From Natrinema sp. SYSU A 869 (GTDB lineage: Archaea > Halobacteriota > Halobacteria > Halobacteriales > Natrialbaceae), in contig NZ_CP082249.1 in assembly GCF_019879105.1 (NCBI RefSeq), positions 3,162,001 through 3,226,000 on the forward strand: a stretch of 64,000 nt of DNA, given 5' to 3'. Numbering within the stretch: the first letter of the stretch is position 1; each line of letters starts with the position of its first letter. Below the pieces are notes generated by a model, which did no database searches, had not been told where the DNA came from, and saw only the letters and a list, made by a program, of their open reading frames with translations. The position numbers and the translations under genes are program-made. Positions 32,784 to 57,516 of this stretch are shown here, piece by piece.

Positions 32784-33420
32784 ACCGAGGCCGTCGCCGA
32801 ACTCGAAGCCTCGAACGAACGCCTCGAGCAGTTCGCCTACGCCGCGTCTCACGACCTCCAAGAGCCCCTGCGGATGGTCTCGAGTTACCTGCAACTCATC
32901 GAGAGCCAGTACGCAGACGAACTCGATGCGGACGGCCGGGAGTTCATCGACTACGCCGTCGACGGCGCGGACCGCATGCGCGACATGATTGACGGCCTCC
33001 TCGAGTACTCCTGGATCGACTCGCAGGGCGATCCGTTCGAACCCGTCTCAACGCCGTCCTCGAGGACGTCCTGACTGATCTGCAGGTGATGATCGAGGGG
33101 GCCGACGCCGAGATTACTGCCGAGTCATTGCTCGAGATCCAGGGCGACCCGCCGCGAGTGCACATCGATGCCGAGCGCAACGGCAAGAACTGGGAGATCT
33201 CGGTCGCGGACGAGGGGATCGGTATCGATCCTGACGATCAGGAGCGCTGTTCCGCGTGTTCTAGCGACTGCACAACCGCGAGGAGTACGACGGAACTGGC
33301 ATTGGGCTCGCGCTCTGTTGCCGCATCCTCGAGAGCCACGACGGCCGCATTCAGGTTGACTCTGAACCCGGTGAGGGATCGACGTTCACCGTCACGATCC
33401 CGGCCGACGGCTCGCGGTAA
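32784..33420 (+). pseudogene. Degraded phytochrome-class histidine kinase, C-terminal part
   Basis: Starts right after the lhr stop without any N-terminal sensor domain. The phospho-acceptor helix is clear (RLEQFAYAASHDLQEPLRMV, with His). The DGADRMRDMIDGLLEYS helix follows. A frameshift near 33050 moves coding to the frame LEDVLTDLQVMIEGADAEI. The N-box segment is deleted (ESLLEIQGDPPRVHI). A further shift and a TAG near 33264 interrupt the G1 box after SVADEGIGIDPDDQ. The end ([23 protein letters not shown]) is again recognisable up to the TAA at 33418. Several lesions make this a real pseudogene. Confidence 0.85.
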
Positions 33421-33458
33421 CGCAGTCGACGGCTCGAACGGCGGGACGAGGCCGCCGG

Positions 33459-34693
33459 TCAGCGAACGACCGCGTCTTCGACGTCCGCCGGAAGGATCAC
33501 CTCGAGTTCGCCGGCCGATTCGAGCTCGTCGAGATGACCGACCGTCTCCTCGAGTACCGACTCGGCGTCGTCATCGAGTTCACCGAAGGCAAGCGACGTG
33601 ACGCCGCCCATTTCGGCGGTGAGTTCGAGTATCGAACGCGCCTCGTTGGCGTCGAGACCGGTAACCCGCGAGCAGAGGTGCGGGTTCGTGGCGGCCCCCT
33701 GGGACGGATAGCGACCGGCGAACGCGAGGTCGTGGTGCGTCGTGACGGCCTCGAGCACGTCCCCGTCGTACCGACCGTACGGGTACGAGAAGTACTGTGC
33801 GCCCTCTTCGAACCCTCGTCCTCGAGCCACTCCACGGCGTCGCCGACTTCCGTCTCGGGGTCGCGATCCGCCGAGAGATTGGTGAGGTCGGCCCCGTGTG
33901 CCGAGTGACTCCCGATCGTCCACCCAGCGTCGGCGAGTGCCGTCAGCTGATCGCGAACGAGGTGGTCGCCCTCGTCGCCGTCGTCATCGCGGATCCGACC
34001 CGTCATAATGAACGATACTGCGGGATAGTCGTATTCCTCGAGGATCGGCAGTGCACGCGTATAGTCCGATTCGTAGCCGCCATCGAACTGGAGCATGACC
34101 TGTCCGGTCTCCGGCGCGTCGACGAATTGGAGGTCGTCGACCCACACCGACCCTTTGTCATCCTCGCCCGTCCAGCGGAGGAGTTGGATTTCGCTCACGG
34201 CACTGAGATCCGGGTCGCCGTCGATATCGCTGATCCCGAAGTTACACTGCACGAGCGGCGTTCCGGCGTGCGTTCGCTGTCGGAACTCGAGCCGGTCGCC
34301 GTCCTCGTCGATCACCTGGACGACGACATCGGCCTCCTCCTCCGTCGCCATCGCGAGCCCCGGTCGGGTCCCCGAGAGATCGCGGGGCTCGGACAGTTCC
34401 CGAACAATTCTGACCTGATCGTCTCCGTCCTCTGCCTCGAGTCTCGCGGATTGGGACCCGGTATACGATCGATCGGCATCCGCCGAGAGGGAACCAATCC
34501 GTTCTTCCCACTCGTCGAGGTTCTCGAAGTCGTCGAACGCGTTGGCTCTCGCCCCGTCGCCCGACTCAGCTTCGTCGTCGGTTCCGGCCTCGCTGCTCCC
34601 GTTCTCCGGGGACTCGTCCTCTGCCTCTTCGGTGCTCGAACAGCCCGCGAGCACGGCCGCCGCGGCAACGCCGAGATATGTTCGTCGTTTCAT
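33459..34693 (-). pseudogene. Polysaccharide deacetylase-type lipoprotein, frameshifted near 33814
   Basis: About 411 codons. The start MKRRTYLGVAAAAVLAGC gives a twin-Arg-like signal with lipobox Cys. Residues 20-45 are an acidic linker, about 50-190 a carbohydrate-binding-like beta domain, and from about 200 the NodB-like deacetylase fold (GQVMLQFDGGYESDYTRAL, IGSHSAHGADLTNLS). One G missing in the G run complementary to 33813-33815 breaks the frame after AVEWLEDEG. The other frame then continues FEEGAQYFSYPYGRYDGDVL to the stop at 33459. It would remove acetyl groups from a surface glycan. The lesion looks like a homopolymer error. Confidence 0.8.
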
Positions 34694-35920: not shown

Positions 35921-36331
35921 ATGACGTTTTTACGGTATCGGGCGGCCAAACCGGCCGTGATCGAACTTGACTGGGAGACGGACCGTACCGAGGGCGTAAC
36001 GCTAATTTCGGCGACCGTTGCGAACGCCCTGACGACGCCTCAACTCGTCCGTATCGAAAGTCGCATCGACGGTCCACTCTGGTCCCCGGACCGCGAACAG
36101 CATCCGGCCCCCGAGTGGACTGACGGGCGCTGGGAAGGTGTTGTCAAGCCCACACAATGTCGCGGCGTCGGCTTCGCGAGTCCGTCAGTACCGTCCGACC
36201 CCGCGGATCCGCCGCTCGAAGTGACCGAGACACGCCGCGTTTCGAGCGACCAGTCCGCGGCGACGACTGACGTACTCGCGTCACTGCCCAACTGGCGACC
36301 GACGCTCAACATCCTCGGACGGCAGCGATGA
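35921..36331 (+). CDS. Haloarchaeal protein of the MinD-like locus (DUF7857-like)
   Basis: 136 aa from the ATG at 35921. The core reads VIELDWETDRTEGVTLISAT, then TTPQLVRIESRIDGPLW and DGRWEGVV, an immunoglobulin-like beta pattern. It ends with an overlap (ATGA) into the MinD-like gene. I recall this pairing from other haloarchaea, where both stand near small DUF proteins and type IV pilus-like genes, but the exact DUF number is from memory. Function unknown. Confidence 0.75.
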   Translation: MTFLRYRAAKPAVIELDWETDRTEGVTLISATVANALTTPQLVRIESRIDGPLWSPDREQHPAPEWTDGRWEGVVKPTQCRGVGFASPSVPSDPADPPLEVTETRRVSSDQSAATTDVLASLPNWRPTLNILGRQR

Positions 36332-37057
36332 TCGTCGCCGTCAGTGGTGGGAAAGGCGGCGTCGGCAAATCGACGATCGCCGTAAATCTCGGACACGAAC
36401 TTGACGCAGTCGTCATCGACGGCGACCTCGCGACCCCGGACCTCCCGCGTGGTCACGGGCCGACCCTGCATGACGTACTGGCCGGCCAGGCCGAGCCACT
36501 CGAGGCGATCAACCAGCACGGACCGGTCCGCTTTCTTCCGTCCGGGCGGACGCTCTCTGGTGCCCGCGCGGCGGACCTGACAGCGTTTCTGCGAGTCATC
36601 GAGCGGATCGAGCGGGAGTACGGCCGCGTCGTCATCGACTGCCCCGCCGGGCTGGCACGTGATGTCGGTCGGCAACTCGAGAGCGCACAGTTGACGGTCG
36701 ACGCCGGTCGAGTCAGCACTCGCCGACGCACTGCACACGAGACAGCTCGCGCTCGACCTCGAGACACCGGTCGCAGCGGTTGTTCTCAACAAGACTGGGT
36801 CCGACGCGACCGACGCGATCGCCGAGCAGTGCGACGAATCGACCGGCCGATCCGAGGAGAGCGACGCCGGGGTCGGCGTACCGATACTCGAGCCCGTTCG
36901 AGCGGACGACGATCCGTTCCGCATCGCGGTCGGTGAGCGTGTCGACCACCGTTCGCCGGCAGGCGCTTGCGGCACCGAGAGCACCGTCGCAGTCGGCCGC
37001 ATCGAGGACGAGAGTCTTGCCCTCGAAGGACGTTCGACAGCGACACGCCGACGCTGA
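36328..37057 (+). pseudogene. MinD/ParA-like ATPase, frameshifted and 3'-truncated
   Basis: The start at 36328 gives the deviant Walker A SGGKGGVGKST (residues 6-16), then VVIDGDLATPDLP and the Walker B-like RVVIDCPAGLARDVG. After QLTVDA at about 36706 coding moves to the next frame (one G too many in cgg, 36706-36707): ESALADALHTRQLALDLETP then VAAVVLNKTGSDA. From roughly 36815 the sequence is shared with the better-supported opposite-strand gene. The open frame to the TGA at 37055 is therefore probably a shadow, and the natural MinD C-terminus is missing. Confidence 0.6.
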
Positions 37058-37171
37058 GTCGTCGGTCCGATCGAAGAGGCGGCCGACGCCACGGCCGGCT
37101 CGACCGAAGTAGTCACGCCCGCCGAAATCGTCGATGACCGATCGAATGCGTCCGGTCCCGTCCTGTGACAT
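36713..37171 (-). CDS. Haloarchaeal hypothetical protein, C-terminus probably truncated
   Basis: 152 aa from the ATG at 37169-37171. The N-terminal part is well formed (IRSVIDDFGGRDYFGRAGRG, FEGKTLVLDAADCDGALG, ERIVVRSNGLEYRYADPGVA, then LLGSAGRFVALLGDR) and belongs to a haloarchaeal family I recall beside MinD-like genes. After GDR, at about 36815, the usual continuation is absent and the frame runs antisense through the MinD gene to a chance stop. It appears that a deletion joined the 3' ends of two convergent genes. Confidence 0.55.
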   Translation of the reverse strand: MSQDGTGRIRSVIDDFGGRDYFGRAGRGVGRLFDRTDDSASACRCRTSFEGKTLVLDAADCDGALGAASACRRTVVDTLTDRDAERIVVRSNGLEYRYADPGVALLGSAGRFVALLGDRVGRVGPSLVENNRCDRCLEVERELSRVQCVGEC

Positions 37172-37202
37172 ACCGTTGCTGGCAGCGGCATCCGATTTAA
37201 AC

Positions 37203-37661
37203 TCACACACGGCTCGCAACGACGACGGGGTCACCGTTCACGTCGGATCGCAGGGTCAGGGCCAGTCGCGTCGTGCCGACCCCACCGAGTTCGACCGATT
37301 CGGTGGCAGCGGGGTCGTTCCAGACGATGCGTTCCCCGATCGCCGCCTCCCGCGTCGTTCCGTCCGCGAGGACGTACCGAACGGAACTGTAGCTCTCTCG
37401 AGGCGTGATCTCGAAGTGATCGACGGACTCGGTCGTGAGCGAGCGCTGCGGCAGCGTCACGTCGACGACTCGCCGGGGTGCAGGATGGTCGTCGGGCGGG
37501 GTTTCCTCGGTTTCGGTGAGAGACGTCGCCGCATCGTCGATCGCCGCGATACTCGTCTCGACCTGCCGCTGGCTGTTCATCGATGCCCCCCGCTCGATCG
37601 CCGGGACAGCGAGCGCGATGAGTGCAATCGTGAGCACGACCGCGACGACGTACCGAATCAC
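37203..37661 (-). CDS. Small secreted or pilin-like haloarchaeal protein (DUF7311-like)
   Basis: 152 aa if started at the GTG at 37659-37661, which overlaps the TGA of the upstream gene as GTGA. A longer form could start at 37733. One N-terminal hydrophobic helix (VVAVVLTIALIALAVPAIE) is followed by a soluble beta-rich part with RRVVDVTLPQRSLTTESVDH and TTREAAIGERIVW, ending LALTLRSDVNGDPVVVASRV. It resembles an anchored pseudopilin. It is in the same operon as the coiled-coil protein upstream. Confidence 0.75.
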   Translation of the reverse strand: MIRYVVAVVLTIALIALAVPAIERGASMNSQRQVETSIAAIDDAATSLTETEETPPDDHPAPRRVVDVTLPQRSLTTESVDHFEITPRESYSSVRYVLADGTTREAAIGERIVWNDPAATESVELGGVGTTRLALTLRSDVNGDPVVVASRV

Positions 37662-38440
37662 GGTAGTCGTGCGCGAAGTGATTGCAACACGCCCTCGGTC
37701 GACCCATCGTCGCCGTCGGAGCCGTGAGCCCACTCGCGAGGCTCATCTGTCGCCATTGCCGCCTCGCTCGAGGAAGTGCCATCGGCCGATTGATCCCGAT
37801 CAACTGAGTCGGAATCGACTGCTCCGGAATCGGCTGAGTCGGCGAGCCGACGCTCGAGTACGTCCTGCGATGACTCGGTCTCGGAACCGGGAGCCATCGA
37901 CGCGGTCCAGATCGGTGGACGGTCAGCGACCGGATTCGGCTGACTCTCGCCGGGGTCGCCGTTCCCGTCGGTGGTTGGGGAAACGATTTCCGAGACGGTG
38001 TGTTCCACGAGAGGCGGACCGCTAGTCGGTTCGGTCGCAGTGATCGACGCGTCCGACGGCCCGGTCGACTCGCGATCGGTCCGGGTGGCTGGCCCGTTCG
38101 CCCCCGGCATGTCCATCCCCGGCACGTCCGTCCGGTCGTCAGCCGTGCCCTCATCGTCTCGGGGCGGTGTCAGAGCGAGCCCATCGACGTCGGTTCCGTC
38201 GACGGCTTGCTCGAGTTCATCGAGCCGGTGTTCGAGGCGACCGACGGCGGCGACCGCGACATCAGCGCGACGTTCGATGTCGTCGTTGACCGATTTGACA
38301 CTACCGATGAACCCGCTGAGCGCGTCGACCCGCCCCTCGAGATCTGCGATGCGGCGCTCGTGTGCATCGAGCCGCGCGGTGAATTCCTCGAGGTCGTCGG
38401 CGACGGACGCGATGTCGGCGAGTTCGTCTATAGTAGCCAC
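37658..38440 (-). pseudogene. Coiled-coil protein (DUF7310-like), 5' end split off by a mobile element
   Basis: 260 codons can be read from a GTG at 38438-38440. Residues 2-85 are a coiled coil (FTARLDAHERRIADLEGRVD, VGRLEHRLDELEQAVDG); the rest is acidic and disordered, ending LQSLRARLP. The GTG lies inside the 74-bp element at 38434-38507. On its other side, minus strand 38508-38585, is the lost N-terminus: an ATG at 38583-38585 followed by SDIDRIEQRLAAVEHVVVDG and a TAG at the element edge. The element therefore inserted into the gene after about codon 24. The body may still be made from the new GTG. Confidence 0.8.
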
Positions 38441-38507
38441 TGAAAATCACTGCACGCCTGATCGCACGACGGCTGTGCGATCGGCGCGTAAATAGTTTCA
38501 GTTGTTA
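38434..38507. mobile_element. 74-bp palindromic MITE-like element, copy 1
   Basis: Bounded by the direct duplication ctatag at 38428-38433 and 38508-38513. Ends are tagccactgaaa and tttcagttgtta, imperfect inverted repeats. The centre is a palindrome gatcgca...tgcgatc. Copy 2 at 57372-57445 is also exactly 74 bp, 64/74 identical, and has a different duplication (ctatcg). Too short to encode protein, so it must be moved by a transposase elsewhere. It interrupts the coiled-coil gene here. Confidence 0.85.
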
Positions 38508-38802
38508 CTATAGTTTGACGTCGCCGTCGACGACTACGTGTTCGACGGCGGCCAACCGCTGTTCGATCCGGTCGATGTCGCTCATGGCGAGCGTTGCCCG
38601 GCCTTCGTATTTAAAGCTGAGAACGGGTCTCCGATTCGAATTCGTCGATCGGTACTGTCGTGATTCGCGGGCCAAACAACTGTTTTCCCGGAGTAAATAG
38701 ATTGTTCAGTCGTCCGATTCCGCTGAATTCACCGTAATCTATCGAAACGGTGGACCCGGTATTTGCGTCGTCGCCGTCAAGGAACCACTCTCAGTGAGTT
38801 CG

Positions 38803-41508: not shown

Positions 41509-41967
41509 ATGAGTCTCCGCGTCGCGGTCGCCGCCCCGTTCATCCAGAACGGCACCCGTCGCCTCAAGGAAAACGAGTTCGTCGTCGCCCTCTCGCTCGA
41601 TCGGGACTGGTTCTCCCCCGATCAGGCCAAGCGGCTGATCGATGTCGCTACGGGCGAGGGACTCCTCGAGCGCGGCGACGACGGTCTCGCGGTCACGTTC
41701 GACCCCGCCGAGGTGACGGTCCCGGAAGATTTCGTCCCCGAGGAGGACCTCCTGCAAGAACGCTCGGCATTCGAACGCGTCCTCGATTCGCTGGTCGCCG
41801 AGGGCATGGAGAAACACGAGGCGGTCGGTGCGATCAATACCGTCCAACAGGAACTCGGGCTGACGATCGAGGCCGCTGCAGTGATCTATGCCCGTCGCGA
41901 AGGGATCACTGTCGATGATCTTGCACCGATCGCCCGGGCAGCCGTGCTCGACACCGAAGACGACTAA
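41509..41967 (+). CDS. DUF2240 family protein
   Basis: 152 aa from the ATG at 41509. It has the archaeal DUF2240 pattern: SLRVAVAAPFIQNGTRRLKE, then FVVALSLDRDWFSPDQAKRL, GEGLLERGDDGLAVTFDP, and a helical end with AINTVQQELGLTIEAAAVIY. The N-terminal half looks like a winged helix. Function unknown. Followed after 23 bases by another small haloarchaeal gene in the same direction. Confidence 0.9.
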   Translation: MSLRVAVAAPFIQNGTRRLKENEFVVALSLDRDWFSPDQAKRLIDVATGEGLLERGDDGLAVTFDPAEVTVPEDFVPEEDLLQERSAFERVLDSLVAEGMEKHEAVGAINTVQQELGLTIEAAAVIYARREGITVDDLAPIARAAVLDTEDD

Positions 41968-41990
41968 TCCCGCCGACCCGACCCACGGGT

Positions 41991-42383
41991 ATGGTCGAGG
42001 ACCGGATCACCGACGGTCGCCGGATTGCTGAACTTCTCTCGAGCGAAATCGACGGCCGTGAGGACGGCGAACTCGCACGCTTTGCCGTCACTAACGCCGA
42101 TCGAGACGTCGAGCCGACGGCCGACGGCGCTCGCGCTTATGACGTCACCCGCCGCGACGAGCGGATCGCTCGCGCGTTCATCCACGACGACAGGGCCCAC
42201 CTCGAGTTCGAGGCGGGTCAGGACGCAGCGGCCGAGACGGCGTCGGACATCGGCCTCCGAGTGCGTCCGAAGGCGACGCAGCCGCCGAAAACGCTCGTCT
42301 TTGTCGAGAGTGGAGCCGAGGTCAAGCGAGCGACGGACGTGTTACAGACCGTGAGCCAGCGGCTCGAGGAAACTGAGTCGTAA
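41991..42383 (+). CDS. Conserved haloarchaeal hypothetical protein
   Basis: 130 aa. Begins VEDRITDGRRIAELLSSEID and ends with TLVFVESGAEVKRATDVLQT and a helical tail. Beta-rich in the middle (YDVTRRDERIARAFIHDD, AHLEFEAGQDAA). Probably co-transcribed with the DUF2240 gene, 23 bases upstream. No domain recognised. Confidence 0.75.
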   Translation: MVEDRITDGRRIAELLSSEIDGREDGELARFAVTNADRDVEPTADGARAYDVTRRDERIARAFIHDDRAHLEFEAGQDAAAETASDIGLRVRPKATQPPKTLVFVESGAEVKRATDVLQTVSQRLEETES

Positions 42384-57181: not shown

Positions 57182-57371
57182 ACTACTCGTAGGGTCTCGA
57201 GCGTCTTGAAAGCGGCCCCGGAATGCGTCGACGGTGGGTCCCCATCGAGTATGGTATAGGAGGAGAGAGCGTCTCACTCGACACAGTTGTCGTCTGTTCG
57301 AACCCACCCGAACGAGTCACCGGCAGGCACTCACGCTCTCCGGCGCTGCCCTCTCGACGCGATCACTATCG

Positions 57372-57445
57372 GAGCCACTGAAAGTCACTGCACACCTGAT
57401 CGCATGACAGCTGTGCGATCAGCGTGTAAATCGTTTCAGTGGCTA
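57372..57445. mobile_element. 74-bp palindromic MITE-like element, copy 2
   Basis: Flanked by the duplication ctatcg at 57366-57371 and 57446-57451. Ends are gagccactgaaa and tttcagtggcta. Same length as copy 1 (38434-38507), 64/74 identical, in the same orientation. This copy lies in an intergenic region and disrupts no gene. Confidence 0.85.
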
Positions 57446-57516
57446 CTATCGCTGTACCAGCGGGGCGACAGTCCCTCCAATAGTTCGATTGTGCGGTAGT
57501 GTATAACTCAATATTG

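Follow-up and report, generated by a model that had tools for sequence, protein, structure and literature searches.

A TA-duplicating 80-bp palindromic element interrupts a DUF7310 gene in Natrinema and very probably belongs with the IS630-type MITEs

The window, that is, the whole stretch of DNA that was analysed, comprises 64,000 nt of the Natrinema sp. SYSU A 869 genome (NZ_CP082249.1, positions 3,162,001 to 3,226,000), and all coordinates refer to it unless another record is named. It carries a block of MinD-like, DUF7311 and DUF7310 genes into which a short palindromic element is inserted; a second copy of the element lies further along the window.

36328-36936, plus strand: MinD-like ATPase fragment, frameshifted near 36750, with its C-terminal part missing (Pfam and ORF inspection).
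37203-37733, minus strand: DUF7311 gene adjoining the broken gene, apparently intact (PF23993, 7.2e-47).
37658-38440, minus strand: remainder of the DUF7310 coiled-coil gene, 260 aa, reading from a GTG that lies within the element (PF23991, 7.6e-21).
38429-38430, no strand: left-hand TA of the target duplication (the C of C-TA-G lies at 38428; net insertion 82 bp).
38431-38510, plus strand: palindromic MITE of 80 bp, TAGTAGCCACTGAAA...TTTCAGTTGTTACTA (empty sites in relatives G015 and G025, and alignment of ~90 copies).
38459-38483, plus strand: inner hairpin stem TGATCGCAC...GTGCGATCG, in which copies differ by paired changes (fold and covariation).
38511-38512, no strand: right-hand TA of the target duplication (the G of C-TA-G lies at 38513; net insertion 82 bp).
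38514-38585, minus strand: broken 5' end of the DUF7310 gene, 24 codons and then Leu-stop at the edge of the element (orthologs 67-71% identical over these 24 aa).
57369-57448, plus strand: second MITE copy, its CTATCG edges coincidental (copy search and copy table; a clean empty site was sought and not found).

The DUF7310 gene of this genome is disrupted by the element after codon 24. On the minus strand, the reading frame runs through MSDIDRIEQRLAAVEHVVVDGDVK(L) and meets TAG at the element edge, and an ORF beginning at GTG 38440-38438 within the element would continue the protein, just as the initial annotation had described; the coiled-coil protein that it named is DUF7310. The one-base difference between the upstream and downstream frames, likewise read correctly, follows from the net gain of 82 bp, since 82 = 1 mod 3. 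Rejoining the flanks with a single CTAG restored the ORF to MSDIDRIEQRLAAVEHVVVDGDVKLDELADIASVADDLEEF, matching MSDIERIERRLSAVERAVVDGDIELDELADIASVA of relatives; rejoining them with a single CTATAG produced a stop codon and left the ORF unrestored.

Comparison with relatives revealed the site to be empty in G015 and G025, which have exactly 82 bp fewer at this place, corresponding to the 80-bp element plus TA. At the DNA level, window positions 38428 and 38512 align with positions 2166 and 2168 of L091 (G015) and with positions 1977 and 1979 of L092 (G025), and the empty site reads CCAG in both. These empty sites in orthologs, together with many dispersed copies, bear out the proposal that a MITE-like element has split the gene. 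The palindrome was absent from the equivalent place in the orthologous DUF7310 genes examined and is therefore not a conserved hairpin of that gene. Further copies in the Natrinema genome face empty sites in G011, reading CTAG (L007 and L025), CTGG (L028) and CTGA (L022); a difference of +82 was the best fit for all of them, with less clean flanks for L025. The element thus shows 82-bp net insertions with TA, while for copies L012 and L026 a clean empty site was sought in comparison with relatives and not found. One copy specific to G011 and missing from the Natrinema genome differs by 80 rather than 82 bp and has a degenerate right edge, and one degenerate copy appears to be common to both species; copies therefore differ in age.

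We tabulated the edges of ~90 complete copies from this and related genomes, one place being counted twice. The distance from the flanking C to the flanking G was exactly 86 bp in 84 of the ~90, and with these edge bases included the palindrome spans 38428-38513 and the second window copy 57366-57451. CTATAG forms the left edge in 67 copies and the right edge in 62. Left and right hexamers agree in 52 copies: 51 of these pairs are CTATAG, and the only other one is CTATCG, at the second window copy (57366/57446). Common one-sided variants stay on their side: left-edge ATATAG (six copies) was absent from the right edge of any copy, and right-edge CTATAT (eight copies) and CTATAA (five copies) from the left edge of any. 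The architecture of the element is C-TA, then 80 bp reading TAGTAGCC...GGCTACTA, then TA-G, and CTATAG appears at both edges because C-TA is followed by the element's own terminal TAG. The inferred target is CTAG in 53 of the ~90 copies. This tetranucleotide occurs 32 times in the 64-kb window, whereas a Markov estimate predicts 54 occurrences and base composition 212; because CTAG is scarce in these genomes, the element has few insertion sites, and they can be predicted.

A search of the Natrinema genome returned 40 scored copies among 84 candidates (E 4.8e-23 for the second window copy), a repetition that chance does not explain, and a further 17 copies, whether full, partial or of the long variant, came from fetching unpartnered end matches. 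The genome thus holds at least 57 copies in 5.67 Mb, answering the call to count copies, and with its length of 80 bp, lack of a transposase and terminal inverted repeats (TIRs) of ~15 bp the element has the general features of a MITE. Across the order, 68 of 293 genomes carry it, comprising 50 of the 63 genomes of its own family, 17 from one other family and a single genome from a third (the family names, Natrialbaceae and Haloarculaceae, were taken from plasmid records). Plasmids carry it at 170 places, spread over 47 records from Natrinema, Natronorubrum, Natrialba, Haloarcula, Halomicrobium and others; most of these places are intergenic, without an annotated gene under the best match. Searches for the element in phage records gave no match, and an exact 15-mer search of viral contigs gave 40 matches, all chance-like. 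Longer variants of ~120-127 bp, which contain an additional internal hairpin, were also observed (L052, L267, L273, L281, L285 and L232:10966-11091), and one L232 copy at 41758-42175 has grown to ~416 bp through internal repeats. On pNMAG02, half an element is joined to the 3' end of the TnpB-like CDS NMAG_RS19815 (L235:22157-22218); this MITE-like end appears to be what is left of a MITE and not part of a parent insertion sequence.

IS630 reportedly prefers CTAG, to go by the title of the 1991 work of Tenzen and Ohtsubo, which PMC2170065 lists among its references. Elements of the IS630 family transpose into TA and duplicate it (PMC2170065), and the present element shows the same behaviour, with TA duplicated and CTAG preferred. 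IS630 elements of the genus (PF13358) are 1055 bp long, end in TAGTARCCGTTAGAA and are flanked by CTA/TAG. On Natrialba magadii pNMAG02, ISNma7 and ISNamo16, both IS630 elements, sit inside copies of the MITE at a MITE-internal CTAG with TA duplicated (L235:14278-15420 and L236:9495-10636), other MITE copies providing the empty site. The ends of the MITE and of ISNma7-type IS630 elements agree in 7/8 terminal bases and 19/30 overall (shuffle p 5e-5, the best of four comparisons, uncorrected), with a common terminal TAGTARCC, weak further similarity and no exact partner found; in a sister IS630 group ending in TACTGTCGGCTGAAAA, CTGAAA lies in the same register as in the MITE. The TA duplication, the CTAG preference and the TAGTA ends therefore place the element with the IS630 (Tc1/mariner-type) elements. 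It is very probably a non-autonomous MITE of this type: a near-palindrome of 80 bp whose target is TA, preferably within CTAG, and which duplicates TA alone.

Looking for an insertion sequence with the same ends, as the initial annotation had advised, returned no autonomous element with an identical full TIR in the Natrinema genome or in ~1.6 Mb of further sequence. As to a parent transposon in the genome itself, the unpartnered end matches proved to be whole, degenerate, truncated or ~127-bp variants of the MITE, or chance; Haloarcula and other sister IS630 groups were set aside as parents because their ends differ from those of the MITE. A DDE_3 transposase was not detected in many MITE-rich genomes, including the single-contig G020, and the co-occurrence of MITE and IS630 in the family was not significant (25/28 versus 25/35, Fisher p = 0.12). 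These results weigh against movement by an IS630-type transposase.

The initial annotation had instead read a 74-bp MITE flanked by 6-bp target duplications, ctatag here and ctatcg at the second copy, as a transposase making 6-bp staggered cuts would leave them. Its description of the second copy was accurate (a 74-bp stretch, 64/74 identical, edges ctatag/ctatag and ctatcg/ctatcg), and the matching 6 bp at the edges of both window copies are what such duplications would produce. The length-exact empty sites argue otherwise, as a 6-bp duplication predicts +80 bp and a leftover CTATAG rather than the +82 seen; empty sites and copy alignment together set the length at 80 bp, and empty sites and the edge table confine the duplication to TA. 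In that table, the near-uniform identity of matching hexamers as one palindrome and the restriction of common variants to one side run counter to flanking hexamers that match at each site and differ between sites, and ctatcg, taken as proof of insertion, is an isolated coincidence. The 6-bp duplication and the 74-bp element are thus refuted. Mobilization by a non-IS630 enzyme, such as an IS5-type element with a YTAR/CTAG target, is very unlikely: the IS5-type MITE MITEPsy1 can choose CTAG (PMC3189936) and no exact IS630 parent was found, but MITEPsy1 duplicates a 4-bp target, whereas here CTAG is not duplicated, only TA, and the MITE ends begin with TAGTA, as do local IS630 ends.

A further reading takes the palindrome for a conserved structured RNA or cis-regulatory hairpin with an ERIC/REP-like function, kept because it acts as DNA or within transcripts and dispersed secondarily. 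The single-stranded element folds strongly (z = -6), and stem-keeping paired changes link columns 32-56 (T-A to C-G in 21 rows), 16-71 (11 rows) and 39-49 (8 rows), giving a covariation score of 0.090 as compared to 0.060 for shuffled alignments (0/500); the mostly intergenic plasmid copies would also fit. Throughout the palindrome, its inner stem included, which is not a transposase end, subfamilies carry double changes with few intermediates, as a pairing constraint would leave them. Paired changes are, however, also expected from arm-matching in transposition or from hairpin copying, and many rows share them by descent; the pairing may stem either from the matching of arms as the element transposes or from selection for the hairpin. 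An Rfam search returned no family at the gathering score, the best match scoring 24.7 bits where the gathering score is 95. Sites occupied in one species are empty in another, and the window copy breaks a gene. Of the two observations that had been named as speaking against the initial reading, copies elsewhere without 6-bp duplications were indeed found, and a palindrome at the same place in relatives was not seen in the orthologs examined. On this balance a primary RNA or regulatory role appears unlikely.

Under the favoured IS630-type reading, a DDE transposase acting in trans would bind the TAGTAGCCACTGAAA ends and move the MITE by cut and paste. For this mobilizer, the ISNma7/ISNamo16-like group is the best candidate at present, the alternative being a sister with closer ends that is extinct or has yet to be sampled. 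Haloarchaeal IS630 elements of that group are like the MITE in their TA duplication, CTAG target and TAGTA ends, with weak further similarity, but differ in their 1055-bp length with a transposase and in the inner half of the TIR, GTTAGAA as opposed to ACTGAAA in the MITE. The window copy inserted into the DUF7310 gene of a locus that is itself decaying.

The initial annotation's 'MinD-like locus' holds insofar as a MinD-like ORF adjoins the broken gene; it is a remnant only, the ORF being frameshifted and truncated and the block missing in close relatives. The MinD/DUF7311/DUF7310 block (35932-38617) is missing from G011, G013 and G017, which have the same synteny, and of the 29 genomes in the genus only 11 gave a DUF7310 match. 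This locus is in decay and dispensable, and the insertion therefore need not have been selected; it was probably neutral, having struck a gene that can be dispensed with. Further frameshifted-looking ORFs lie at 33086-34693 (kinase-like near 33.1 kb, polysaccharide-deacetylase-like at 33.5-34.7 kb), reflecting decay or sequencing errors.

The family resembles a known kind of element, the RUP- and Correia-like MITEs. RUP lives in another host, Streptococcus pneumoniae, and to our knowledge its sequence is unrelated to that of the MITE; the Correia/NEMIS elements of Neisseria, to which promoter, IHF and RNase III roles are ascribed, differ in having a bacterial host and another TIR. RUP is likewise ~100 bp, non-coding, present in ~100 copies, intergenic and directed to TA, and an IS630-type mobilizer has been proposed for it, namely IS630-Spn1 (PMC2229807); RUP and the resident IS630-Spn1 have close TIRs in common, whereas for the MITE no exact partner is known. 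Correia/NEMIS elements have short inverted repeats with TA termini, a target duplication and size variants with an inner insert in common with the MITE, and give a hairpin transcript (PMC2229807, PMC10969869). Closer in host are the small mobile repeats (SMRs) of Haloquadratum walsbyi, also haloarchaeal, ~80-110 bp long, with terminal inverted repeats and no TIR-matching transposon; by their description they are set apart, being reported without target duplication, with SMR-A targeting PATE/IS605, while the MITE duplicates TA and targets CTAG (PMC3119063). In the open-licence literature searched, ISfinder apart, we found no published description of the MITE family, for which a name may exist, and a literature search by its sequence returned unrelated papers only.

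With these results, exact ends and a target rule are defined for a repeat that is very common in Natrialbaceae and Haloarculaceae. A wrong duplication length, such as 6 bp, would point to the wrong transposase. If selection, and not arm-matching, maintains pairing throughout the palindrome, the element could have been domesticated as a family-wide haloarchaeal hairpin that acts as RNA or DNA. Relatedly, the SMRs could be IS630-type elements whose TA duplication is hidden in their inverted repeats; we regard these extensions as unlikely. The mobility of SMRs has been termed enigmatic (PMC3119063), and with the MITE the unexplained movement of small repeats in haloarchaea can be put to the test.
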